From an uncultured Bacteroidales bacterium (GTDB lineage: Bacteria; Bacteroidota; Bacteroidia; Bacteroidales; FEN-979): 37,862 nt of DNA. The stretch spans positions 1-37,862 of the forward strand of contig CAIYUC010000134.1 in the NCBI GenBank assembly GCA_903929315.1, read 5' to 3'. The position numbers and the translations under genes are program-made. Below, in pieces: positions 17,020-33,034 of the stretch. The notes beneath the pieces were generated by a model. It was not told the origin of the DNA and ran no database searches. It saw nothing but the letters and a program-made list of their open reading frames with translations. Numbering within the stretch: position 1 is the first letter of the stretch; the number at the start of each line of letters is the position of its first letter.

Positions 17020-17403
17020 ATGCATCTTTTAGCTATCTCGTTGCTAACTATTCTTGCAGGTACCTTGTTGCTTGCAAAATTCAGAAAAGACATGCCCGGC
17101 AAATTCTTTGCCTTTATCTCCTGGTTCTTTATCGTAGTAGGATTCATCCTTTTCATCGGCTTTATCGGAGGTGGCATTTGCAGGATGACACATCATGGTT
17201 GTTCTGGTCAGCCCAATTGCCAGCATGAGTTGATGATGAAAAATTGGCACCATGGAATGCAGGGTGGTTTTTGCTGTCCACAAGCCATGGACAAAGGAAT
17301 GTGTTCCAAAAAACCAGGATGTATGTCGCACGACAGTATGATGAAATGCTGCCCTAAACATATGGAAGGTGATTCAACTAAAATGCCGGTTCCAAAAAAA
17401 TGA
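17020..17403 (+). CDS. Small Cys/His/Met-rich two-TM membrane protein
   Basis: 127 aa. Two TM segments (about 1-19 and 29-52) are followed by a tail of about 75 residues that holds nine Cys, many His and many Met: CRMTHHGC, NCQHELMMKNWHHGM, FCCPQAM, MCSKKPGCMSHDSMMKCC. Such composition suggests soft-metal binding (Cu+, Zn2+, Ag+) or disulfide linking, but no named metal domain was recognised. The ATG at 17020 is chosen because the hydrophobic segment starts immediately; a longer frame upstream reads as non-conserved sequence. No metal pump or regulator is adjacent, so the role is inferred only from composition. Confidence 0.65.
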   Translation: MHLLAISLLTILAGTLLLAKFRKDMPGKFFAFISWFFIVVGFILFIGFIGGGICRMTHHGCSGQPNCQHELMMKNWHHGMQGGFCCPQAMDKGMCSKKPGCMSHDSMMKCCPKHMEGDSTKMPVPKK

Positions 17404-19656: not shown

Positions 19657-20928
19657 TTAAACTGAAGATACAATTCGAAACCCGATAAAACGGAGTGTCA
19701 TTAAAGGTAGAGTACATCCACGATTTGCAGATCTGCAATCTGTTGCTTGAAAATTAAAACTACCCCCTCGATGTACTTTAAGTGCACCCAATAAAAAATG
19801 TTGGCATTCTTTAGGTATATCATTAATATTGGGGCCTCGAGGATCTTTTTGATGTTCTATGGGATACTCAGAAAAAAAGTCACTACACCATTCAGATACA
19901 TTGCCGTGCATATCATATAACCCCCAGGCATTAGAAGAAAAAGATCCCACCGGCGAAGGAAACATACCTACTCCTTTACTAATATTGTATTGAGGATTAT
20001 TTCCTGTGTAATTAGCTTGGTCAATTGTTAAAAACTCTCCAGTACTATAAGCGGTTTTTGTCCCTGCACGACAAGCATATTCCCATTCAGCTTCAGTTGG
20101 CAAACGGCAACCCAACCATTCTGCAAAGGCTTTCACATCATCCCAACTAACGTTAACCACCGGAGTTTTATCATTACTACCTAAGCAGCGATAATTGAAC
20201 AATCCTCTTTTTTTGGAAGTCGCCTCACAAAATGCGTCGTATTGCTCATTAGTGATTTCATATTTACTCATCCTGAATGCACTAATAGTTACCTGATGTT
20301 GAGTTTCATATTTACTTCTACTTATTTCATTTACAGGACTACCCATAATAAATGTACCTTCTGGTATATCAACCCACTCGATTGTTATTTTACCACAAAT
20401 ACTACATTTTCCGTCAACCCATTTATGCTTCTCAAAATTAATTCTATCGCATTTTAAACATTTACATCCATTCCAATCATGTTTATGGGTACTTGATTTT
20501 CCGCATTTTGAACACTTTTCACAATCTCCTTTCCAGTCATGTTGGTTTTGTCGTTGTTTGCCACAATATGAACATCGCTCACAGTCTTTACTCCAATCAT
20601 GATGATTCTCCCTATTCCTGCCACAGATAGAACATTTGTTACAATCCTTTGACCAATCATGTTTGTTGATTCTATTTTGTCCGCATTTTGAACATCTTTG
20701 ACAATCTATTTTCCAGTCATGTTTGTTATCTCTCTTTTCATGACAAATAGAACATTCTTCACAATCTTTCGACCAATTATGCTTATTCTTACGATGCATT
20801 CCACAATTGGAGCATTTTTCGCAATCGTTCCTCCAGTCATGCTTATCGATTCTGATTTTTCCGCATTCTGTACACTTTTCACAATCACTTTTCCAATTAT
20901 GTACTCCTATACTACACAGAATTTTCAT
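19657..20928 (-). CDS. Cys/His/Trp 20-residue repeat protein fused to an FGE-sulfatase-like domain
   Basis: 423 aa. Residues 10-150 hold seven repeats of exactly 20 aa, consensus H-x-W-x3-C-x2-C-x2-C-G-x2-R-x(4) (for example HDWSKDCERCSYCGKQRQNQ), then two degenerate units to about 180. The Cys and His look like metal ligands. Residues about 184-421 form a formylglycine-generating-enzyme (FGS/SUMF) fold: IPEGTFIMGSP, RLPTEAEWEYACRAGT, GLYDMHGNVSEWC, HRGGSF and GFRI. In active FGE the segment GGS-x2-C-x4-C supplies two Cys; here it reads GGSFNFQATDC, so the first is Phe, suggesting a binding rather than catalytic role. FGS-fold domains occur in conflict systems with STAND NTPases. It is the last intact gene of the minus-strand CHAT cluster, 93 bp after the CFI-box gene. 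Confidence 0.8.
   Translation of the reverse strand: MKILCSIGVHNWKSDCEKCTECGKIRIDKHDWRNDCEKCSNCGMHRKNKHNWSKDCEECSICHEKRDNKHDWKIDCQRCSKCGQNRINKHDWSKDCNKCSICGRNRENHHDWSKDCERCSYCGKQRQNQHDWKGDCEKCSKCGKSSTHKHDWNGCKCLKCDRINFEKHKWVDGKCSICGKITIEWVDIPEGTFIMGSPVNEISRSKYETQHQVTISAFRMSKYEITNEQYDAFCEATSKKRGLFNYRCLGSNDKTPVVNVSWDDVKAFAEWLGCRLPTEAEWEYACRAGTKTAYSTGEFLTIDQANYTGNNPQYNISKGVGMFPSPVGSFSSNAWGLYDMHGNVSEWCSDFFSEYPIEHQKDPRGPNINDIPKECQHFLLGALKVHRGGSFNFQATDCRSANRGCTLPLMTLRFIGFRIVSSV
20479..20901 (-). repeat. Seven in-gene 60-bp tandem repeats
   Basis: The DNA encoding residues 10-150 of the FGS-fusion protein repeats every 60 bp. Landmarks recur as CCAGTCATG or CCAATCATG (encoding HDW) and as AACATT or AACACT (encoding KC/EC contexts). 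Units differ by many substitutions, so the array is old rather than freshly expanded. Confidence 0.8.
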
Positions 20929-21021: not shown

Positions 21022-21810
21022 CTATCTATTTTTCTCAAACCTTGAAACCAAATTATCAAGTATTGCTTTTAAAAGGGGAATCATACAATCCAGTTGAGTT
21101 GAAATCAATCTGCCGATTGTTTTCCCGGTACCTGAATAATAAAATTGTATAAATATTTTACCAAGAAAAGTTGATGACATCTTTTCATCACGATATCGTC
21201 GTAATACAATCACCTCCTTTGCATTTATGTCACCATATACCGCGGTTGCGATAAAACAGTCTTTCGTGGATTTTGTCCCTTTACTTTCACCTATTTCAGG
21301 TGGTTCATTTACTTGCTTTTGTAATAATTTTAGATTATGTTCGATTTCAGGAAGATATCTTGTTCCTTTCGGCGTTTGCTGGTATAGATACTTTGCCAAT
21401 TCATAATGCCCTATTGATTCTTTCAAGCGACCTAAATGTTTAAGTGAAATAGCAGCCGACTTATTCGCAGACCCTTCTGTAAAGACCAGTTCGGACTTCC
21501 CATTTACCAACGAGATACATTCTTTGGCTTCTTTTATGGCATTTTCATAATCTCCCAAACTTCCATAAGCAGCTGCCATATCGGCTTTGCAAATCGCAAC
21601 CAGATATTTTGCTTCCGGAATTTTATTAAATATCCTGATGGCTTCCTGCGCATATTTCAGGGTACCCTTATAATCTCCATTAGATAGTTTTCTCTGGCTT
21701 TTATCTGCTTCATCCAAACCTGAAATACAAAGATTCAAATCTTGCTGCCGGCCTAATCTTTGCAGCTTTTTACAAACCTCGTCTCCTTCAAAATAATTTA
21801 AATTTGTCAT
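21022..21810 (-). CDS. TPR protein with C-terminal CFI-box domain
   Basis: 262 aa. Residues about 30-165 contain TPR-like helical hairpins (GDYKGTLKYAQEAIRIFNKI, GDYENAIKEAKECISL, GRLKESIGHYELAKYLYQQ). After a linker, CFIATAVYG and VIVLRRYRDE mark the CFI-box-CTERM domain, found at the C-terminus of otherwise varied proteins and proposed to be a processing or localisation module. A hydrophobic stretch follows (FLGKIFIQFYYSGTGKTIGRLI). The start is the ATG at 21810, preceded by GGGAGG seven nt away, the best Shine-Dalgarno of the cluster; the ATG at 21825 overlaps this site and is less likely. It lies between the three-TM and FGS-fusion genes, all on one strand, and is probably part of their operon. 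Exact role unknown. Confidence 0.7.
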   Translation of the reverse strand: MTNLNYFEGDEVCKKLQRLGRQQDLNLCISGLDEADKSQRKLSNGDYKGTLKYAQEAIRIFNKIPEAKYLVAICKADMAAAYGSLGDYENAIKEAKECISLVNGKSELVFTEGSANKSAAISLKHLGRLKESIGHYELAKYLYQQTPKGTRYLPEIEHNLKLLQKQVNEPPEIGESKGTKSTKDCFIATAVYGDINAKEVIVLRRYRDEKMSSTFLGKIFIQFYYSGTGKTIGRLISTQLDCMIPLLKAILDNLVSRFEKNR

Positions 21811-21903
21811 ATTTCTGCCTCCCATTTAAGAATAATAAATGATTTGTTGTCACTGGGATTGAGATTGTTTTTACTCTCCTATCTTCGTTACCAAGCTTTA
21901 AAC

Positions 21904-22314
21904 TTAAAAGAAAAATTGAACAGTTAAGAAAATCAGGGCAACTAAATAGCAAACAGTACTGATTATCAGAAGTAAATATTTAATTTGGATTACCTTTTTA
22001 TGTGCCTTCCGGAACCCAAAGGTCGAATCTTTTGCATATCGGTACCGGAATGGAAAGCAAGCAATAAATGAGATAAGAAGAGCGATCAGCCACAATATAA
22101 TCGCCCAATTTGTGATGCCACCTGATGAATGATAAAAGTCACTTTTAAGGACAGATAAAAAGAGTGTCAGAGTAATAGAAATGATCCCAGTTAGCGTTTT
22201 GGCAGTATCCTCAAGTCGTTTGGGTGTTTCTTGCTGTTCCTTCAATTGAAAATCATGCCATTTTTCAGTATCTGGATCGGCGGGTTTCGTTTGCAATATT
22301 TGTTTTTCTACCAT
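21904..22314 (-). CDS. Small three-TM membrane protein
   Basis: 136 aa. An N-terminal soluble, Gln/Glu/Lys-rich helix (about 1-40) leads to TM1 (about 42-62, LTGIISITLTLFLSVL), TM2 (about 73-95, AIILWLIALLISFIACF) and TM3 (about 113-136, YLLLIISTVCYLVALIFL). A basic loop (FRYRYAKDSTFGFRKAHKK) separates TM2 and TM3. No named domain was recognised. The gene starts 12 bp after the CHAT-STAND-TPR gene. In NTPase-based defence operons, small multi-TM proteins of this shape can be pore-forming effectors; that role here is an inference from position and topology only. Confidence 0.65.
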   Translation of the reverse strand: MVEKQILQTKPADPDTEKWHDFQLKEQQETPKRLEDTAKTLTGIISITLTLFLSVLKSDFYHSSGGITNWAIILWLIALLISFIACFPFRYRYAKDSTFGFRKAHKKVIQIKYLLLIISTVCYLVALIFLTVQFFF

Positions 22315-22326
22315 GTATGTTAAATA

Positions 22327-25300
22327 TTAAATAAAACCATTTTGCCGTAACATAATTTCTAGTTCAAGTATGCCGTTTAATTCATACCTTTTACCAATTC
22401 TGTATGCATTCAATAGTATTTTCTTCCCCTCATCAATACGATTCATATTATAAAGATTACAACCATAGCTTCTGCCGATTTCAAATATGCTTACAGTATT
22501 ATTTAACTCATGAGCAAGACGCCAAGCTTCTGAATGGTATTTAAGATACTTATTAATATCATTTTTCCTAAGTGCAATTAACGCCATATTATGTAAGGTT
22601 GGTAATAACCTCGCCTTGTCATCAAATTCCTTTTTAATATTTAATGATTGTTCCAAGAAGTCCAATGCATTATCATATTGACCTAGGTTGTAATAAAACG
22701 TGCCTATATTATTGAGTGTCGTACCTTCTCCTTCTTTATCGCCAATTTCCCTACTTATTTTTAGAGATTCCTCAAATAGATCCAGAGATCTATAATCTTC
22801 CCCTATATATTGGTAGATAAGGCTGATTGCATTTAGTGCCTTTCCCTCTAAAAATTTATTTCCAATTTTTTTCGCTATTTTTAAGGATTGCTCAAAAAGA
22901 TCCAATGCCTCACTATAATTGCCTTTCTCATATGCTATTGTCGCAATATTATTAAGAACGGAACCTTCAGTTACTTTATCGCCAACATCCTTAGATATTA
23001 TTAAGGATAGCTCAAAGAAGTTCTGCGCTTTATCAAGAATACCCTGTGTTCTGTAGAGGTGTCCAATATTATTAAGTGTTGTCCCTTCTCCACGCTTATC
23101 CCCTATCTCCCTTGCTATTTTTAAGGATAGCTGAAAAAAATCAAGCGCCTTTTCATTATCATTTTGCGCCTGATAGATCTGGCTGATATTATTCAATACT
23201 GTACTTTCACCAGCCTTATCTCCAATCTCTTTTCTTATTTCTAAGGATTGCTCAAAGAACTTCAGTGCTTCATTATAATTAAACAGTTTTCTATATATTT
23301 CAGCGATATTATTAAGGTTCTTACCTTGTGTTTCTTTATCACCAGTTTCTCTTGAAATACTTAAGGACATTTCTAAAAATTCCAGTGCCTTATTATAATC
23401 ACATCTCGTATCGTAAATCTGGCTTATATTATTAAGTGTTCGTCCTTCGTGTACTTTACTCCCTAACTCTCTCAATATTTGTAATGATTGATCTAATAAC
23501 TCCAACGCCTTGTCAAGCTCACCCATGGTGTGGTAAATCATTGCCATATTATTGATTGTATTGGCTTCTCCGGATTTATTCATCCCATTTCTATAACCGA
23601 TTAGGCTTTTCTCATAAAAAGATAAAGCTTTGGAAAGTTCTCCGAAGAATTGGTAAAGCATTCCCAACAGATTGATCGTTCCTACAGGAGTATCATCTTG
23701 TAATTGACCAAATGATTGACTGGCATATTGAATTGCATCAGAATAAAGTTTATTTAAAAAGAAAAACTCGGACAACCAAGCGCCAGTATCCCCAATTTCT
23801 TTTTTGTTACCTGCGTTGATAAAATGGAAAAATGCCTCTTCCATTTCTTGGATATTCTTTTTCCTATCCAAAGTATTAAATACATTGAGGTAATAATAAC
23901 CTGCCTCATTGTGTGAAAAAGAGGCTATATTCCCGAATTCATCTTTCTCAAGCAACAGTTCCCGAATTAGTGGTGTGACGTAAAAAAGGTCATCCCAATC
24001 ATTTGTTTTATGCTTCTCAATGAGTGTATAACGATGAAGGACTTCAAAAGCCTTTTCAGGATGAGAAACAGTATCCTTGTTTCCGAGTTGCTTGATAATG
24101 GCATCAATAGATACCGGAATTCGGAAGCCGGATAGAAGGAGAAATATGACCAGATGTTCCACGGCTATCAGCGAAACAAGTTCATCAAAAAGGAAATTTT
24201 TGCTCATTTTCTGAAGCACCTCTTCGCTTGCCATCATGTTTTTTTGTCTGAAGTTTATCAGGGTATCGAGTGTAGAAGTGAATTTTTGCGGATTATTTAT
24301 AACTATATCATTAAAAAACTGCAATGCCCTGAAATTTCCTCCAAAGGACTCATAAAGTTGTTTTACAAGGTCAGGGAAAGAGATTATTTTTTCAGTTTGG
24401 TTACCCCCCTGCTTTATCGATTGGTAATGATCATCATAGAGCCGTGACAGCTCAAGGTAATTACATTTCTTCCAGAAATCGTTGAAGTTGTTATGATTCA
24501 AGTCTAATGTCAGAAGAGATTTGTAGTAATCTCCACATAAGGGGTAGCGGCAGGTTAAAAGCAGGAAAAGGTCATTCCGGACAACTAAAGTTTTCAGGAT
24601 GTTCTCAAGTTCAAAGAATTCCTCCTTGAATTTTTCTCCCGGAGCACACTGGAACGATTCAAGGTTATCGAATATCAAAAAAGGTTCACCGTATTTTCTT
24701 TTAATTACTCCAAGTAGGAAAATGATCTTCTTTGAAGGGCTATCAAGTTTTTCGGCTGCGATATAATCAGTATTTCCCTTGTTGAGCAAAAAATCCACAA
24801 GCTGATCAATAATATTTTTAACCCGGAATGTATGTTCGTTAAAAAAAAATGGTTGAAGGCTGGGTTCTATCAGAAAGAGCCGTTGGACCAGGTGCTCGGC
24901 AAGCGCTGATTTACCTACTCCACCCTGTCCCTTTAGCAGGATAGGTCGTTTCTCTTTAAGTGCAGGTAAAATCAACTTTTTATCGGGTTTACGACCGATG
25001 AAGAGATAGTCATCGGGATGGTCGATAAGAATCTTTTGTTTAAAAAAACGTTTGTATGGGAATTCCAACCGGGCATATGGAGCCTCCCAATCAACTAGAC
25101 TTTCTATTGGTTTTGAAATGTAAAGATTTGGAATGATCCATTGCAGGGGTAGGGGTATATAAGGATTGTTTTTAATTTCCTCATATTCCTTTTGATGGAG
25201 AAATCTAACAGCATCCATGAAGGCAGATGGTACTGTTGAATGATTAGTCAATTGTTGATAAAAATGAGTCGTAAAAAGAGTCGCATAATGATCGTTTATT

Positions 25301-26130
25301 GATGAACCCATGGAGATTACTGCTGGAATACCAATACTGAACAATTTGTTTGTTATTCCGGTCATGTTAGCACTTCCTTGTGCACTTTGACATGAGGAAA
25401 GAATGACGAGCGGCACCAAGTGGTCTTGATTAATGTTCAGGCAATTGGCAAACTCCTCATCCGATACTTCTTCTTTGCTCATTGTAATAGCATTCTCCAT
25501 CGTCAGATAGCCTCTCTTCACTTTTTCGTCAAATGCCGAATGACCTGAGAAATGTAAAACATGGTATTTATTGAGCTGCAATTTGCTTTTTAGTGTTTCT
25601 TTGGAAGCATCATTGCAGAAATCAATCTGTACTTGTCCATTATGAATTAGTGGCTCAAAAGATTCTAGCATCAATCTTTCTTCATCTTCATACGATAGCC
25701 GATTCTTAAAAAGAAGATCTTCAGGTGAGGAAATCATGACAAGGATCTTCAAAGGTGGAGGCACTTTCTGAAAGAGTAGTTGCAGATTGTAGTATCCTGG
25801 GATACTTTTTGTGAGGTAAATCGATTCGAAATCACCAATACGTTTGCCTGACGAGTCTGTGGCAGATATCCATGGAAGGTTAAGGATCTCGTTATCGGGA
25901 TGTTGCAGGGAGATCACCATGTGTTCATCAGTTTTTTCCTTGCTTTCCAGAAAGGTGATTATCGATTTGTTATCCTGGATGACAGATGACATTTCCTTTA
26001 CCAGTTCATCAAGAACGTTTGATTTAAGTGACCGACCTTCTTGTATATACCGAACAATGTCTGAATACAACTTCTTAAGCAATAAAACCTTTTTTTCAGG
26101 TATATCAAGAGGAACAGATATCCAGATCAT
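22327..26130 (-). CDS. CHAT protease-STAND NTPase-TPR protein
   Basis: 1267 aa, likely cytosolic. Residues about 100-335 are a CHAT domain (caspase-like) with the predicted His-Cys dyad H197 (LHFSGHSAFD) and C247 (VILSSCQSAQG). Residues about 375-650 are a STAND/NACHT-like P-loop NTPase: Walker A GQGGVGKS (401-408), Walker B FLIFDNLE (484-491) and sensor-like LLLTCRY. A winged-helix-like part follows (FRIPVSIDAIIKQLGN). From about 815 to 1235 are at least ten 40-residue TPR units, each with the LNNI-x(3)-Y core. In known STAND proteins the repeats sense a trigger, the NTPase oligomerises and the N-terminal domain is the effector. I infer regulated proteolysis, perhaps anti-phage death. The start is the ATG at 26130, 26 bp after the Zn-ribbon stop. 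Confidence 0.85.
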   Translation of the reverse strand: MIWISVPLDIPEKKVLLLKKLYSDIVRYIQEGRSLKSNVLDELVKEMSSVIQDNKSIITFLESKEKTDEHMVISLQHPDNEILNLPWISATDSSGKRIGDFESIYLTKSIPGYYNLQLLFQKVPPPLKILVMISSPEDLLFKNRLSYEDEERLMLESFEPLIHNGQVQIDFCNDASKETLKSKLQLNKYHVLHFSGHSAFDEKVKRGYLTMENAITMSKEEVSDEEFANCLNINQDHLVPLVILSSCQSAQGSANMTGITNKLFSIGIPAVISMGSSINDHYATLFTTHFYQQLTNHSTVPSAFMDAVRFLHQKEYEEIKNNPYIPLPLQWIIPNLYISKPIESLVDWEAPYARLEFPYKRFFKQKILIDHPDDYLFIGRKPDKKLILPALKEKRPILLKGQGGVGKSALAEHLVQRLFLIEPSLQPFFFNEHTFRVKNIIDQLVDFLLNKGNTDYIAAEKLDSPSKKIIFLLGVIKRKYGEPFLIFDNLESFQCAPGEKFKEEFFELENILKTLVVRNDLFLLLTCRYPLCGDYYKSLLTLDLNHNNFNDFWKKCNYLELSRLYDDHYQSIKQGGNQTEKIISFPDLVKQLYESFGGNFRALQFFNDIVINNPQKFTSTLDTLINFRQKNMMASEEVLQKMSKNFLFDELVSLIAVEHLVIFLLLSGFRIPVSIDAIIKQLGNKDTVSHPEKAFEVLHRYTLIEKHKTNDWDDLFYVTPLIRELLLEKDEFGNIASFSHNEAGYYYLNVFNTLDRKKNIQEMEEAFFHFINAGNKKEIGDTGAWLSEFFFLNKLYSDAIQYASQSFGQLQDDTPVGTINLLGMLYQFFGELSKALSFYEKSLIGYRNGMNKSGEANTINNMAMIYHTMGELDKALELLDQSLQILRELGSKVHEGRTLNNISQIYDTRCDYNKALEFLEMSLSISRETGDKETQGKNLNNIAEIYRKLFNYNEALKFFEQSLEIRKEIGDKAGESTVLNNISQIYQAQNDNEKALDFFQLSLKIAREIGDKRGEGTTLNNIGHLYRTQGILDKAQNFFELSLIISKDVGDKVTEGSVLNNIATIAYEKGNYSEALDLFEQSLKIAKKIGNKFLEGKALNAISLIYQYIGEDYRSLDLFEESLKISREIGDKEGEGTTLNNIGTFYYNLGQYDNALDFLEQSLNIKKEFDDKARLLPTLHNMALIALRKNDINKYLKYHSEAWRLAHELNNTVSIFEIGRSYGCNLYNMNRIDEGKKILLNAYRIGKRYELNGILELEIMLRQNGFI

Positions 26131-26407: not shown

Positions 26408-27425
26408 CTAAAATTGTTTGTCGATAATATATTGAATATAAAATGGCCTTTGCTCTTTTTGAAATAAAACATGATTTGAATTAAAGTCTTCCATGCTTTC
26501 CTGGCCTTTCCAGTGTGTCAATTGGTTGTAAGGAGTGTTGGAAATTATAAATGAATTTAATTCTATGTCCGGATCATTCAACTTAGGTTGGATGCTTGTT
26601 TTTATTGACTTATGCAATTGGATTTTCGGATCTGTTAACCCTTGAATTTGTCTTAGTCCTTTAGGGTCTATAAATGAAACATATTGCTTTTTGCCTATGA
26701 CCAACCAAAGAATAAAGTCAGGGAAGAAATTATTTGCTTCAAAAAAGCCAATTCCTTTTTTGCTCATATTCCTAAGCAGGTAAAGTTGCTTGTCTTCGAA
26801 AAGTTCCGCATTGTTACCAAAATACCGTTTTAAGTCTTCTACCAAGTCACGTTCACCTTTGTTAAGTGGCACCGGTTGAAGTTTAACAATTTCTTCGTAC
26901 CTGCATTTATCAATGTATATGAGCGGTTGATATAAATGTAGCCCGGCATAAAGAGCTTCAAAGTCATTATCAATTTTGAAATTTTTTTTAAATTCATTCT
27001 TCCGAACTATTTCTTTTAATTCCCTTAGTTTGCTGATGATTCTATCTTCCGTTTTTTTCACCAGGAAGTTATATTCATCCTCAAAATTAGGATTGGTACT
27101 GTCTAAAATGGCAACCTCAATTTTATCGCTGTAAAATTTGTTTTTTTGATAATTATAGAGCTTTTCAACGAAGGATTTAAGTAAAGACGTTGCCAATTCA
27201 TGCCACAACTTCACCCTCCCATAGTCGGTTAACTCTAATTCCGAAGATGGTATTTGCAATGTGTACCATTCCTGGTCAAGTAGAATGTCTTTCAGCGCTT
27301 CGATAGAAAGATTAACATTATACCAACTGCGTTCGTTCTTGAACTTCTGCATTTCAAAATAAATCCGGGTCCAATCTAAAAAGGCTAAATGACTATTATC
27401 AAGTTTTCCTTCTTCAATGGTAATA
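26408..27425 (-). pseudogene. C-terminal PD-(D/E)XK nuclease part of a helicase-nuclease, truncated by an IS
   Basis: An ATG at 27352 opens 314 aa, but the frame continues without stop to the IS edge (ITIEEGKLDNSHLAFLDW, then TRIYFEM), so the real gene was longer. Residues near 165-235 (from that ATG) carry a restriction-type nuclease core: E168 in KGERDLVEDL, D212 in FFPDFILWLV and D229-x-K231 in SFIDPKGLR, followed by FIISNTPYNQL. This order resembles the end of DEAD/DEAH helicases of type III restriction or related defence systems, normally around 1000 aa. The helicase half is not found beyond the element, so it was deleted. The fragment may still be translated but is unlikely to work as the original enzyme. 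Confidence 0.65.
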
Positions 27426-27474
27426 TGGATATTCCGCTATAATTGACCCCTCTTATACGCATCAAATTGACCCC
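27426..27474 (-). repeat. Right-end IS21 terminal repeats
   Basis: AATTGACCCC occurs at 27441-27450 and 27465-27474 behind the terminal TGGATATTCCGC. The spacing of 24 bp is what multiple transposase-binding repeats of IS21 ends look like. Confidence 0.6.
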
Positions 27475-27538
27475 CCAAAGTTAACTCCCCATTTTTATCA
27501 TTTATCATACCTCAGAATGCCTTAAGCAAAGTTAAACT

Positions 27539-28519
27539 TTATTGCATTGTTATTAAATTCATTTCTTTTTTCATTCCGTATCGTTTTCTCAAAGATTCTC
27601 CGTTAAGCTCGATCCTGTGAGCGTCATGTACAATCCGGTCAAGGATTGCGTAAGCAATGGTTTGTTCCCCGAGGCTATAAAAAGTCTCATTACGCAAAGG
27701 TGCATATACCCTCAGATAGGCTATGTTAACCGTGTTTTCAACCGAAGGCTTGTCTTTGGGTTTTGATACACGGGCGGCCGACAGAGTTGTGTGATAATGT
27801 AAAGCCCATTGCTCACAAACCTCCGTAAAAACGGGTTCATAACGATTACTTCTTTGAACAAACTGCTTCATGTTATCGCTAAGCACATTTTGGGGCACAC
27901 CCCCAAAATAGCTCATGCACTGGCCTAAAGCAGGAATAAGATGTTCCAGGCTTGCGGATTGCAATGCTTCAACGTAAGAGTAACCGCTAAATGGTAAAAC
28001 GCATATAAGAACAGGACATGAGATTATTTCACCCGTTGATGAATCAACGTAAGAAAGCGGGTTACCAGCAAAATCAATCTGTACACGTTCACCCGGATGA
28101 TGTTCAAAGTGCATCGTAGCTGCACTCTTTTGGGTGTAGATCGAAAGATGTTCGCAAAACTGGGAATACCCATAACCATCAGGGACTTCCTGTCGGTATT
28201 CTTCCCAAAGCCGAAGTTTTGTAACACCGGTCCGGGTAAGTTCTATTTGAAAATAATCCAGTCTGGACTTTATATCCTCAAATCGATAGTCTGGTTGTGA
28301 TTCATTGTTTTCAGGATACAATAGAGTGGCCAGGTCAGCATCGGATAGCTTTGATAATAAAGGTAAACTTATCCCTGTTTGTTCAATTTTGGACAAATAG
28401 CCGTCGATGGTGTGACGGCCACAAGATAAAGTCCGGGCTATCTTCCGTTTGGATTGTCCTTGCTCTAAAAGTTGTAGGATGCGTCGAATTTGTAACATAG
28501 TAATTGGTGGATATGACAT
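27539..28519 (-). pseudogene. IstA-IstB in-frame deletion fusion
   Basis: 326 aa. Residues 1 to about 284 are the IstA transposase N-terminus: a helix-turn-helix (about 10-42) and the DDE core D149 (VQIDFAG), D215 (VLSDNMKQF) and E261 (KPSVENTV). At about 284 the sequence turns into the C-terminus of IstB, the AAA+ helper: GEQTIAYAILDRIVHDAHRI, then ELNGESLRK. So the IstA C-terminal quarter to third and most of IstB, including its Walker motifs, are missing, yet the frame is kept. Transposition without IstB is unlikely, but binding to ends or inhibition of a full element is conceivable. The ATG at 28519 lies inside a strong hairpin. Confidence 0.85.
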
Positions 28520-29225: not shown

Positions 29226-29258
29226 AGATGCTGGATGCTGGATGCTGGATGCTGGATA
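29226..29258. repeat. Left heptad array, TGCTGGA x4
   Basis: Four TGCTGGA units (29229-29256), flanked by AGA and TA. The 33-bp segment is the exact reverse complement of 29706-29738, so the two arms frame the four-helix-bundle gene as terminal inverted repeats. Confidence 0.85.
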
Positions 29259-29266
29259 CTTGATGT

Positions 29267-29644
29267 TTATTTATCACTCCTGTGATGTTTTTCAACAGCT
29301 TTGATAAATGAATTTAGTTTCCTGCCTAATTCTTCAAGTCGTTTATGAAGTCTTTCATACTTTTCCTCATCCTTGAAAGATTTTGTTTGAAAAAGTGTTT
29401 CCAAATGGTCAAGTGTTTCATCAGTTGATGCAATTGCTATGATAAGAAAATGTAACAACTCCTGTTTATACTTTCTTCTACCATATCCCTCTACTATATT
29501 TGACTTGACTGACTTTATCGACCTTCGAATTTGACATCCTGTTTCAAACATTTCGAACTTTGGGATTTCATTTGTTGTCATTTTATGAATATCAATCACC
29601 AGTTCATTAGCAATTTTCCAAATTTGAAGATCTTTATAATTCAT
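29267..29644 (-). CDS. Four-helix-bundle protein (23S rRNA intervening-sequence / S23 family)
   Basis: 125 aa. The family pattern is clear: [64 protein letters not shown], then charged helices. The family was named from intervening sequences in 23S rRNA genes and includes relatives of the accessory protein of diversity-generating retroelements; stand-alone copies have no fixed function but bind nucleic acid in some cases. The gene fits almost exactly between two perfect 33-bp inverted repeats built of TGCTGGA units, with the stop 8 bp from the left arm. No rRNA gene or reverse transcriptase is nearby. I take it as cargo of a small mobile unit; this is inference. Confidence 0.85.
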
Positions 29645-29705: not shown

Positions 29706-29738
29706 TATCCAGCATCCAGCATCCAGCATCCAGCATCT
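29706..29738. repeat. Right heptad array, TCCAGCA x4
   Basis: Four TCCAGCA units (29708-29735) in inverse orientation to the left array. It lies just upstream of the predicted fbaA promoter, so it may affect that gene. Confidence 0.85.
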
Positions 29739-29763: not shown

Positions 29764-29799
29764 TTTCTTAATAAGGTAATCACCTAAAATAATTGACCT

Positions 29800-30879
29800 A
29801 TGAGCGAGAAGATTTTAACTAAAGTTGCTCCGGGAGTCGTCACCGGTAAAGATGTCCAGGAGATCTTTCACATTGCAAAAGCAAACGGGTTTGCACTGCC
29901 GGCCGTGAATGTGGTTGGAACGGGTTCAGTGAATGCTGCGCTGGAAGCTGCCAAGATAGTCAATTCACCTGTCATCATCCAGTTCAGTAATGGTGGCGGT
30001 ATTTTCTATGCCGGGAAATCGGTTCCCAATGATAAGGAAAAAGCAGCAATAACCGGCGCTATATCGGGTGCAAAGCATATCCATGTAGTAGCGGAAATGT
30101 ATGGAGTTCCGGTCATCATCCATACGGATCACGCGGCAAAGAAGCTTCTTCCCTGGATAGATGGTCTGCTGGAGGCAGGCGAAGATCATTTTAAAAAGTA
30201 TGGAAAACCTTTGTTCAGTTCCCATATGCTGGATCTGTCGCTGGAACCGATGGAAGAAAATGTCGGGATATGCAAACGTTATCTTGAGAGGATGAGCAAA
30301 ATGGGAATGACCCTTGAGATCGAACTGGGAGTGACCGGTGGAGAAGAAGATGCCGTGGACCATTCTGACATTCATAGTTCAAGATTATACACACAGCCGG
30401 AACATGTGGCTTATGCATATGAACAACTGATGCAGGTAAGCGATCGGTTTACCATTGCAGCTGCCTTTGGGAACGTGCATGGCGTGTATAAACCGGGTAA
30501 TGTGAAACTGGAGCCCATCATTCTTTATAATTCCCAGCAATATATACAGAAAAAGTTCAACACAGGTCCAAATCCGGTGAATTTAGTATTTCATGGCGGT
30601 TCCGGTTCTGAACCTGAAAAGATCAAAGAAGCTATTTCCTATGGCGTAGTAAAAATGAATATTGATACCGACACTCAATGGGCCTTCTGGGAAGGGATCA
30701 TGAAATATTACAAGAAGAATGAAGCCTATTTACAGGACCAGATCGGGAATCCGGAAGGGGAAGATAAACCCAATAAAAAATATTATGATCCCCGTCAATT
30801 TCTGCGGGAAGGTGAAAAATCAATGGTGGAACGGTTGAAGGTAGCTTTTGCTGATTTGAATTGTGTGAACAGGAATTAA
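29800..30879 (+). CDS. fbaA: Class II fructose-bisphosphate aldolase
   Basis: 359 aa, the exact class typical of type A class II aldolases. It cleaves fructose 1,6-bisphosphate to glyceraldehyde 3-phosphate and dihydroxyacetone phosphate in glycolysis, with a Zn2+ ion. Visible motifs: ALPAVNVVGTGSVNAALEAA at the start of the barrel, zinc-ligand region IIHTDHAAKK, SSHMLDLSLEPMEEN, ELGVTGGEED, AAAFGNVHGVYKPGNVKL and the phosphate-binding LVFHGGSGS, then NIDTDTQWAF. ATG at 29800. It is convergent with the USP gene, whose stop lies 14 bp beyond. It is core metabolism and marks the right edge of the accessory stretch. Confidence 0.95.
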   Translation: MSEKILTKVAPGVVTGKDVQEIFHIAKANGFALPAVNVVGTGSVNAALEAAKIVNSPVIIQFSNGGGIFYAGKSVPNDKEKAAITGAISGAKHIHVVAEMYGVPVIIHTDHAAKKLLPWIDGLLEAGEDHFKKYGKPLFSSHMLDLSLEPMEENVGICKRYLERMSKMGMTLEIELGVTGGEEDAVDHSDIHSSRLYTQPEHVAYAYEQLMQVSDRFTIAAAFGNVHGVYKPGNVKLEPIILYNSQQYIQKKFNTGPNPVNLVFHGGSGSEPEKIKEAISYGVVKMNIDTDTQWAFWEGIMKYYKKNEAYLQDQIGNPEGEDKPNKKYYDPRQFLREGEKSMVERLKVAFADLNCVNRN

Positions 30880-30893
30880 CCTTTCAGACGGTT

Positions 30894-31745
30894 TTAAAAG
30901 CCGATTCCTGAGGCAAGCAAATCCTTCGAATGGATGCTCAGGACAGGAACAGGTGAATGATTTACCGTTTGTTGCGCATAAGGGCCCATCCAAAGATTGG
31001 AAGTCGTTGTTTCCTGCTCTGTCATAATGGAAATAAGATTTGCATCAATCTTTTGGGCAAATTCGATCATTTTATCGGAAATATTATCCGCATCTGCGTG
31101 CTCCATGTGGAAAGTTACTCCTTCTTCTTCTAAATGTAAAGCTACCTGCTTGGCATAAAGATCCACATTCTGCTGAATCTCCTTGACCCTAGATGAATAC
31201 AAGCAAAGAATGTAAATTTCCGCATTATGCATTTTGGCAAGGTATCCTGTAAAATTGGTTTTCTGTCTTGTTTCCACAGAGCTGTCGATAGGTAATACGA
31301 TCCTGTTCAAAGGCCTTTTAACATCGATGCCGGCTCTTATGGTTATGACAGGGCAAGGACTTGCTGATACGATACGGTTGGCATTGCTCCCGATCCAGAA
31401 TTCTTCAAACCCAGATGCCCCATGGGTGCCGGCCACAACCAGCATTGCATGCATTTCTCTTGCTTCAGCTGTGATCTCCCTGTAAACTTTTCCTGTTCTG
31501 ATCTTATAGGTAATTTTATTGTTGGGTAACTGCGGCTGGTACTTTGAAATCAGTTCCTGGAATTGTTTTTCCACTTCTTTCACCGGATCTTTCAATGGTT
31601 TATCGAATTTATCCTTTTCAGAAACCGGTTTCTGAACCCAAACCAGGGTAAGGTCACTCATGCACTTCTGTGCAATGGATAATGCGTGCATAAAAGCATT
31701 TATGGAGCATTCGGAAAAGTCAATAGCGACAATAATCTTATTCAT
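30894..31745 (-). CDS. Tandem-domain universal stress protein
   Basis: 283 aa with two USP domains (about 1-140 and 147-283). Domain 1 begins IIVAIDFSECSINAFMHAL and ends with the nucleotide-binding motif AGTHGASGFEEFWIGSNANR, the G-x2-G-x9-G-S pattern of ATP-binding UspA proteins. Domain 2 is degenerate at this site (MTEQETTTSNLWMGPYAQQT). It is a soluble protein for persistence under stress; partners are unknown. It is 12 bp after the SPOR gene, so USP-SPOR-USP form one operon. It is clearly a paralogue of the other USP (shared order, FEEFWIGSNA versus YEEYWMGSNA). Confidence 0.85.
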   Translation of the reverse strand: MNKIIVAIDFSECSINAFMHALSIAQKCMSDLTLVWVQKPVSEKDKFDKPLKDPVKEVEKQFQELISKYQPQLPNNKITYKIRTGKVYREITAEAREMHAMLVVAGTHGASGFEEFWIGSNANRIVSASPCPVITIRAGIDVKRPLNRIVLPIDSSVETRQKTNFTGYLAKMHNAEIYILCLYSSRVKEIQQNVDLYAKQVALHLEEEGVTFHMEHADADNISDKMIEFAQKIDANLISIMTEQETTTSNLWMGPYAQQTVNHSPVPVLSIHSKDLLASGIGF

Positions 31746-31757
31746 AGGTCAAGGTTT

Positions 31758-32198
31758 TTATTGTTCAACTTTAGGTAAATTAATCAGATCCTCGATAATC
31801 CAGGCGCCCGGATATTCCGTAATAATTTCATTTAAAAACCGCTGGGCATCCAGTCGGGTCCTGAAATCACCCACACGTACTTTGTAATTGGGAGCCTTAA
31901 ATGATAAATAAGCAGGTATATCGGGGTATTTTACTGTGAATCCTGTATAAATTGCCTGAGCGCTGGTTTTCGAATTATTCCCGGAGTCAAAGAAGATCTG
32001 TATCCGGAATCCGTTGATCCCTTTTCTGTTTTGATTTATCTGGATATGTTTACTGACAAGAAGATCAACCCGGTCATCCTGGATAATCCGTACATTACTC
32101 TTTGTCATTTCCTGTGAATAGCCAGATGAAACCATGAATACTATCCATTGAAAGAGCAATATCCGATTAATGGTCCGGTGAAATCTGTTATGGCTCAT
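31758..32198 (-). CDS. SPOR-domain exported protein
   Basis: 146 aa from the ATG at 32198. The start is fixed by an ATGA overlap with the TGA of the upstream USP gene; the TTG two codons earlier is not needed. An N-terminal signal (about 10-28, ILLFQWIVFMVSSGYSQ) is followed by a linker and a SPOR domain at about 60-140: FRIQIFFDSGNNSKTSAQAI, YKVRVGDFRTRLDAQRFLNE and AWIIEDLINLP. SPOR domains bind glycan chains of denuded peptidoglycan at division sites. Its place between two stress-protein genes is unusual and suggests a link between stress and cell-wall remodelling, but nothing in the sequence proves it. Confidence 0.8.
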   Translation of the reverse strand: MSHNRFHRTINRILLFQWIVFMVSSGYSQEMTKSNVRIIQDDRVDLLVSKHIQINQNRKGINGFRIQIFFDSGNNSKTSAQAIYTGFTVKYPDIPAYLSFKAPNYKVRVGDFRTRLDAQRFLNEIITEYPGAWIIEDLINLPKVEQ

Positions 32199-33034
32199 AA
32201 GCAAAAATGTTCCTGTGGATGCATACTCAATACCGGTTGCGGAGATTGATTAATGAGTTGTTGGGAATGGGGTCCAAGTAAGATATTCGCAGGTGTTTCC
32301 TGATCGGTCATAATCCCAATGAGATCCGCTCCAATAGCCGTTGCATAAGAAAGAACGCCTTTTGTAATATCTTCTGAGACAATATCATCATAAATATTCC
32401 GGATCTTTTGGCCTTTAAAGTACTGAACAGCCTGATTGCCATATTTTCCGGCAATTCTTTGAATCGACTTCAGGTTAGAATAATGGGTAGCTATTATATG
32501 AACTTCAGAATTAAAGACTTTCGCCAGCTTCGCAATAAAAGGTAACTTCTGAAGTGTTTCCGGATAACCGGCAATGGGGACCAATATCTTATCAATATTG
32601 TCATTGATCGTAAAATCAAACCTCACGGTGATCACGGGACATGAAGCATAGGTTACAATTTTATAAGCATTACTGCCCATCCAGTATTCTTCATAACCGG
32701 AAAGCCCATGTGAACCGGCTATTATCATCATGGCGTTGACATTCTTCGCAAGAATTTCCAATTCATGATAGATCTTACCTTTTCGCAGTTTATATTCCAT
32801 TTTTATCCCCTCTGCAAGTTCTTTTTTGTACTGGATTATCAGTGCGGTAAAACGTTTTTTTGCTTCATTACGGGTATCATTGGATGTGTCGGGATAAATA
32901 GATTCAGTCGGGGTGAACTTATCAACCCAGGCAAGAATTATATCAGTTCCCATCTTGTTTGCAATAGGAATTGAATATTCAATGGCATGAATAGAAGAAC
33001 TGGAAAAATCAACCCCAACGACAATAGGACGCAT
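32195..33034 (-). CDS. Tandem-domain universal stress protein
   Basis: 279 aa, two USP domains. Domain 1 (1-140) begins IVVGVDFSSSSIHAIEYSIP and carries IIAGSHGLSGYEEYWMGSNA, the ATP-binding G-x2-G-x9-G-S motif. Domain 2 (about 147-279) starts KILVPIAGYPETLQKLPFIA and ends MTDQETPANILLGPHSQQ, without an intact motif. It is the first gene of the USP-SPOR-USP operon and overlaps the SPOR gene by 4 bp (ATGA), pointing to coupled translation. It is soluble. The start is the ATG at 33034; the 217-bp gap to ruvB holds the divergent promoters. Confidence 0.85.
   Translation of the reverse strand: MRPIVVGVDFSSSSIHAIEYSIPIANKMGTDIILAWVDKFTPTESIYPDTSNDTRNEAKKRFTALIIQYKKELAEGIKMEYKLRKGKIYHELEILAKNVNAMMIIAGSHGLSGYEEYWMGSNAYKIVTYASCPVITVRFDFTINDNIDKILVPIAGYPETLQKLPFIAKLAKVFNSEVHIIATHYSNLKSIQRIAGKYGNQAVQYFKGQKIRNIYDDIVSEDITKGVLSYATAIGADLIGIMTDQETPANILLGPHSQQLINQSPQPVLSMHPQEHFCL

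Follow-up and report, generated by a model that had tools for sequence, protein, structure and literature searches.

What kind of module is formed by the cysteine-rich repeats that open the protein encoded at 19657..20928 (minus strand, 423 residues), and what do they do for the domain behind them? The gene lies in a 37,862-nucleotide stretch of DNA from an uncultured Bacteroidales bacterium (hereafter the window) and joins a putative zinc-knuckle array to an FGE-sulfatase (FGS) domain of lectin-like fold. An earlier note on this DNA had described a new-looking fusion containing seven repeats with an exact period of 20 residues or 60 bp and an invariant His, Trp and three Cys per unit. A DNA pattern covering two units (H-x-W-x3-C-x2-C-x2-C-x7-H-x-W) gave seven matches in exact 60-bp steps from 20473 to 20901, against none expected from 100 shuffles, and the His, the Trp and the three Cys, together with an Asp, were invariant across all seven units. 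Both the period and the invariant residues were thus borne out.

These seven units, of type A (H-x-W-x3-C-x2-C-x2-C), occupy residues 10-149 (20482..20901, minus strand). The count of seven is right for type A units, but it overlooked three further elements on the same strand: an eighth unit of 18 residues, of type B (H-x4-C-x1-C-x2-C, residues 150-167, 20428..20481); a terminal unit or C-cap without the first of the three cysteines, C1 (H168-x6-C-x2-C, 20389..20427); and an extra putative ligand ahead of the first unit, the N-cap Cys5 (C-x4-H10, 20914..20916). The whole array then holds 36 ligands, that is, nine sets of four. The DNA of the units shares a mean identity of 64%, with 48% at third and 78% at second codon positions, and pS is 0.88 versus a pN of 0.27. 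This divergence, with pS far above pN, indicates that the protein pattern is old and has been kept by selection at the protein level. Recent slippage or expansion of the DNA was ruled out by the divergence of the units and by Tandem Repeats Finder, which did not report the array.

The FGE-sulfatase domain of the window protein

The earlier note had placed an FGS fold behind the repeats, and residues 184-420 (19669..20379, minus strand) indeed matched the FGE-sulfatase family PF03781 with an E value of 7.9e-57 and 193.3 bits, against a curated cut-off of 23.3. Sequence relatives of this domain in the PDB were FGE, PorK/GldK and PvdO. The catalytic cysteines of FGE are presumably the two near RGGS(F/Y). 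In the alignment with FGE chain 5nxl, FLCHESYC falls opposite FNFQATDC, so that Phe stands in place of the first active-site Cys and the second is retained as Cys398 (19735..19737, minus strand). The window domain therefore has one of the two active-site Cys of a catalytic FGE, in agreement with what had been read from the sequence before. A single retained FGE Cys is common in non-enzymatic members of this fold. The domain has probably lost catalysis and would bind a ligand instead. PMC10907252 classes FGE domains as a subtype of the C-type-lectin fold.

Reverse-transcriptase matches are present in the same genome, and we considered whether the gene is a DGR variable protein. This was rejected, because its last 244 bases matched only themselves in the genome (E<=0.001) and thus revealed no template repeat; as the assembly is 98.5% complete, there is a small chance that a template lies in the missing part.

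Ligand grammar across the array family

We scanned 84,980 species, each represented by a single genome, with the two-unit pattern and obtained 78 stretches; three more came from viral contigs. Sixteen loci were removed by hand (11 QueC genes, three viral, two short frames), and nine further loci were removed as they had no in-frame ORF. The remaining 56 loci, from several phyla and about 50 genomes, hold 57 array ORFs, or 58 arrays with that of the window. Of the three discarded viral-contig matches, one was a frame of 40 residues and the other two were low-complexity frames of Cys, Ser and Arg.

A Cys stands before the first H-x-W in 53 of the 58 arrays, as C-x4-H in 51 and C-x3-H in two; of the 53 capped arrays, 50 open with a type B unit. 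Three of the five arrays without the cap (L061, L076 and L080) start at the edge of the available DNA; L038 lies behind an FGE-like part and starts with C-x1-H, and in L026 another pair of Cys lies upstream. If the final Met ahead of the cap is taken as the start, the cap Cys falls at residue 5 in 49 of 52 members. The array is mostly N-terminal, ahead of swappable domains. The open frame continues for more than 30 codons upstream of that Met in four of the 52 members (L049, L060, L067 and L078), and for L060 the ORF tool placed the gene start about 105 residues earlier. These longer frames mean that not all arrays need be N-terminal.

The other end of the chain was examined by counting every His-to-knuckle unit, with or without C1, and leaving out six ends that run off the available DNA. 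C1 was present in 367 of 373 inner units and absent from 49 of 58 chain ends (Fisher p 2e-48, a descriptive value, since kinship between arrays is not corrected for). Four of the six inner exceptions are mis-read CC units, so that the true departures are two in 373: L058, with a shifted Cys, and an inner unit of L060, which has lost C1 and gained a Cys two residues ahead of the following His. Nine of the 58 chain ends keep C1. One last unit, that of L071, has lost its His and kept C1, which again makes four ligands. Where the end lacks C1, His and knuckle were separated by 6 (37 ends) or 8 (10 ends) residues in 47 of 49 cases, and never by 5 or 7. Inner units with C1 have the same values, 6 in 147 and 8 in 215 of 367; the shorter spacing is that of type B units and the longer one that of type A units. 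The equality of end and inner spacings suggests that one geometric set is made up of His, C2 and C3, with C1 lent onward.

This ligand grammar points to a single metal for each unit and speaks for sites in which one Cys is supplied by the unit before. Each repeat unit would be a zinc-binding knuckle, and each site would consist of its own His, C2 and C3 plus the C1 of the unit before it, with Cys5 serving the first site. Neighbouring sites would then be interleaved, like an endless RING-type cross-brace, an arrangement toward which we lean modestly. The strict form, a cap, units and a cap with no stray Cys or His, is found exactly in 19 of the 58 arrays; if all Cys and His are simply added up, the sum is divisible by four in just 23 of 58, because strays, neighbours and cut arrays are counted in it.

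The interleaved sites have to be weighed against a zinc array without interleaving, in which a unit uses its own His and three Cys, or in which successive C-x7-H-x5-C-x2-C or LIM-like C-x2-C-x7-H-x5-C fingers follow one another. Such an array gains from the eleven QueC genes, which match the two-unit pattern with identical spacing, and from a weak profile similarity to LIM proteins of the PDB (best E 0.0035 with a profile of 17 relatives, E 0.15 with the window protein alone). However, a site made within its own unit leaves Cys5 unused and gives the C-cap three ligands, and LIM-like fingers leave 3+3+2 ligands over at the ends. The sequential fingers predict a C-cap spacing of 4-5, whereas the ends without C1 have the spacings of 6 or 8 given above. 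We regard a non-interleaved array as unlikely, although it is a serious competitor.

Conservation bears on whether the array is more than a loose collection of metal ligands. Trp is present in 88% of type A units and 97% of type B units. None of the 20 ligands varies across 17 relatives fused to a FISUMP domain, and among these orthologues the units are 0.63-0.72 identical at the same position versus 0.53-0.67 within one protein. A metallothionein-like store or buffer, to which the C-terminal domain would be incidental, fits the very high Cys content and the range of arrays from 1 to 49 parsed units, but not the constant Trp and fixed spacing, the unit identities conserved by position, or the frequent fusion to recognition domains; we give this reading hardly any weight. 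In the 17 aligned proteins, array positions other than the ligands are conserved at 0.52 versus 0.56 for the C-terminal domain. The array is thus about as conserved as the domain that it precedes, which suggests that it is more than a spacer.

The earlier note had also offered a redox sensor or a nucleic-acid binder as roles, and neither found support. For the latter, a zinc-finger array would recruit the FGS domain to nucleic acids, DNA or RNA, and the charge of the window array, +13 over 180 residues (metal sites uncounted), speaks for this. However, the 57 other arrays have a median of +0.8 per unit, again with metal sites uncounted, and nine are at zero or negative; once about -1 is counted for each Zn(Cys)3His site, they are nearly neutral. 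A nucleic-acid-binding array is accordingly quite improbable.

Known domains, predicted structure and the nature of the sites

Searches for a known identity of the repeat returned no accepted family. In Pfam, no family was found for it in the window protein at E values up to 1, and none above the cut-off in the 30 of 57 relatives that were scanned singly. The matches below threshold in or near Cys-rich stretches were to RUBY_RBDX (L060, E 0.024), DZR (L009, E 0.03), Trm112p (L034, E 0.031) and BPS (L068, E 0.078). With NCBIfam and five array proteins, the repeat matched DndB alone (L021 residues 82-118, E 0.22, 10.6 bits, far below the cut-off of 328), and PADLOC gave no match for the repeat in the window protein. 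The open-access literature, judged by titles and abstract openings, yielded no description of it. A profile hit to a well-known domain, the outcome that had been named as removing the novelty of the repeat, did not appear; in the PDB there was only the weak LIM similarity.

LIM domains, which are used in tandem arrays as protein-interaction scaffolds, have CxxC, H and C ligands and two-residue steps between adjacent sites, as the array does. Their spacing is C-x2-C-x16-23-H-x2-C, unlike the C-x2-C-x7-H-x4/5-C of the array with its 18-20 residues per unit, and no Pfam LIM match was found in the window or in the 30 members scanned. Interleaving between neighbouring sites is the feature of the RING-type cross-brace that is proposed for the array from its sequence; a RING has two sites only, whereas the array would have 2 to about 50 in series. 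The C-terminal tail of QueC (PF06508) has a H-x-W-x3-C-x2-C-x2-C-x7-H-x-W spacing identical to that of the array, and QueC presumably coordinates a single zinc through these three Cys and a fourth; in contrast to the array, this is a single site in an enzyme. The agreement in spacing may reflect chance or a shared zinc geometry. Of the 11 QueC loci (L015, L018, L020, L022, L024, L035, L048, L051, L053, L054 and L057), 10 were identified by Pfam and L057 by eye from its tail. The DUF1660 prophage proteins (PF07874) presumably contain a single C-x4-H-x-W ... C-x2-C module, which would resemble an N-cap and a C-cap without an inner unit. Pfam gave no DUF1660 match in the window at E<=1 or in 30 members at E<=0.1, and none in the same genome.

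Proteins of conflict systems with an FGE-sulfatase or DGR-type lectin fold carry the FGS domain at the C terminus, as the window protein does. According to the consulted part of PMC7159879, the other domains of cyanobacterial VMAP systems are always N-terminal to FGS; that part names zinc ribbons on GTPases and kinases and no such array, and the word 'zinc' is absent from PMC10907252.

AlphaFold2, run on the window array with 42 alignment rows, gave a mean pLDDT of 82.9 and a pTM of 0.57. In blocks of ten residues the pLDDT was 81-96 for residues 1-110, 52-60 for residues 111-140 and 74-88 beyond; the array blocks of L031 had 76-88. Bridge residues flank each C2-x2-C3 on both sides in the predicted window array, and its helices are one of four residues at 3-6 and two three-residue turns. 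The array is thus predicted to be an ordered chain of knuckles, whose overall shape is not fixed at this pTM. A disordered repeat without clustered Cys and His, which had been put forward as an outcome against the repeat, did not appear, and a metal-loaded superhelix, one of the shapes suggested earlier, is plausible. Searched alone, the array had no Foldseek match in the PDB at E<=0.001 and none among 74 VIA-align chains at Z>=2. A viral structure library gave one match, the predicted A0A8S5PQU4, with an E value of 5.1e-5 and TM scores of 0.25/0.16.

As for the metal, CxxCxxC plus His can fit the ligation of a cluster by three Cys and one His, and a [4Fe-4S] or other cluster in each unit would make the array an electron-transfer chain. 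Fen, bog, groundwater and LacPavin samples among the array records are in keeping with such a chain. Against it stand the CxxCG with flanking bridges, which resembles a zinc knuckle, the C-x-C of the type B units and the lack of a redox partner domain among the 30 members scanned or of a recurring neighbour. We consider an Fe-S chain very improbable and zinc highly likely. That the repeats form an ordered metal-binding family is likewise strongly favoured.

Taken together, the array is proposed to be an ordered, probably rod-like module of interleaved zinc knuckles, situated at the N terminus and in the cytoplasm; by eye, the window protein has no signal sequence. The module would act as a stalk or adaptor that spaces, docks, positions or multimerises the recognition domain C-terminal to it; in the window protein this would be the probably non-catalytic, ligand-binding domain of FGE/C-type-lectin fold. 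We assign this full model a probability of about one half; its stalk or adaptor role, taken on its own, is tentative and somewhat short of an even chance. If the model is true, endless sharing of sites between repeats would be a new design for a rigid rod made from 20-residue pieces, useful for protein design. One N-terminal module also connects dozens of proteins with an unnamed N-terminal half that carry C-type-lectin-fold or ankyrin domains, and offers a handle on the intracellular role of these little-understood domains.

Partner domains, spread and gene neighbourhood

A C-terminal partner domain, of recognition or scaffold type, was found above the cut-off in 17 of the 30 members scanned and in none of the other 13. 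The partners, with some overlap, were ankyrin (8), FISUMP (4), FGE (2), HEAT (2), GLUG (2), a PD40 propeller (1) and Lcl_C (1). Leaving aside propeller and HEAT models that bear enzyme names, FGE-sulfatase is the sole partner family to which a known enzyme class belongs; L017 also touches a prolyl-oligopeptidase propeller model. The ankyrin, HEAT, propeller, GLUG, FISUMP and Lcl_C partners rule out that the array is fused uniquely to FGS. Because the same array precedes several other domains, the novelty seen earlier in the fusion does not lie there; it holds for the repeat, which is without an accepted family. The new part is a widespread and apparently undescribed repeat family of exceptionally strict grammar, and the FGS fusion is one instance of it.

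FISUMP proteins (TIGR02145/PF09603) are a frequent partner: besides the four scanned, 16 further proteins align with L031 over their whole length at 55-62% identity. The FISUMP model covers just the C-terminal domain of L031 (residues 102-261) and leaves the N-terminal array outside. This C-terminal domain resembles C-type lectins with a middling VIA Z of 7.8 over 98-99 residues (rmsd 2.8-2.9), and Foldseek gave no match for it at E<=0.001.

Among 50 array genomes, 25 belong to Bacteroidota/Chlorobi, nine to Verrucomicrobia-Lentisphaerae-Planctomycetes, five to Acidobacteria, three to Armatimonadota, two to Proteobacteria and one each to Omnitrophota, Deltaproteobacteria and Myxococcales. The spread is patchy, with matches in three of 61 genomes including that of the window, of which one is weak and falls in a frame interrupted by stops. 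The N-cap pattern matched in one of 395 genomes of the phylum, at a new member, L095, which has the cap, both unit types and a terminal unit without C1; the window misses this pattern because its first unit is of type A. An interleaved, open-ended zinc ladder capped at both ends, used across phyla as an N-terminal adaptor with two to about fifty sites for interchangeable recognition domains (lectin-fold, ankyrin, HEAT, propeller), is a possible description of the family, though one that we hold with some doubt. In the verrucomicrobial arrays L036 and L037, 40 and 49 units were parsed, respectively, and GLUG motifs come after them. The Bacteroidia genome bin AM-2014_bin-3952 has four array-bearing contigs (L045, L052, L061 and L086).

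A phage origin was rejected, as tblastn of phage records gave no match at E<=0.01 and viral contigs gave none to two N-cap patterns, one of which was checked on known loci. The whole window protein matched 78 loci in viral contigs, all from query residue 155 or later, which identifies them as relatives of the FGE domain. Plasmid matches in four Streptomyces records (26% identity, E 0.004-0.007) were taken as chance.

Upstream of the window gene on the minus strand, profile matches revealed a TPR gene with a CFI-box C-terminal domain (21022..21825), a possible operon partner. On the same strand lie a STAND-type CHAT-NACHT-TPR protein of 1267 residues (22327..26130; NACHT E 0.00032, below the Pfam cut-off) and, after it, a small protein judged by eye to be membrane-bound (21904..22314; weak SLATT and PycTM matches, E 0.002 and 0.0053). 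Lectin-fold FGS domains have been proposed as sensors in NTPase-based conflict systems, according to the consulted parts of PMC7159879 and PMC10907252. A TPR gene, cut by the contig end, and the membrane gene recur in G480, thus in two of 149 genomes including that of the window, and no array ORF stands beside them on the 7.8 kb read of G480. Since the pair recurs without the array, a defence role for the window gene is just a possibility, albeit one in line with the proposed sensor role of FGS domains. Among the 25 commonest families listed, none recurs beside array genes in more than 3 of 81 cases, and array genes therefore seem mostly to stand alone.

Several minor observations concern the surrounding DNA. 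In two genomes, a membrane-like protein of 135-136 residues directly follows a TPR gene (window 21904-22314, L176 6928-7335). The small protein at 17020-17403 has a tail rich in Cys, His and Met, is perhaps metal-binding and by eye membrane-bound, and had no Pfam match. At 26408-28519, a fragment from the C-terminal end of a type III restriction enzyme (E 1.3e-39, positions 806-1122 of 1154) adjoins an ORF for an IS21-type transposase whose end resembles IstB, and looks like a disrupted restriction system. In a search for an empty site in 20 kb of G001 from the same genus, only window 29798-32809 and a 54-base piece aligned, with no tRNA there, and no clean insertion point emerged. Two short 7-bp tandem repeats (29227-29265 and 29707-29737) flank the ORF at 29267-29644, near a tRNA-Arg.
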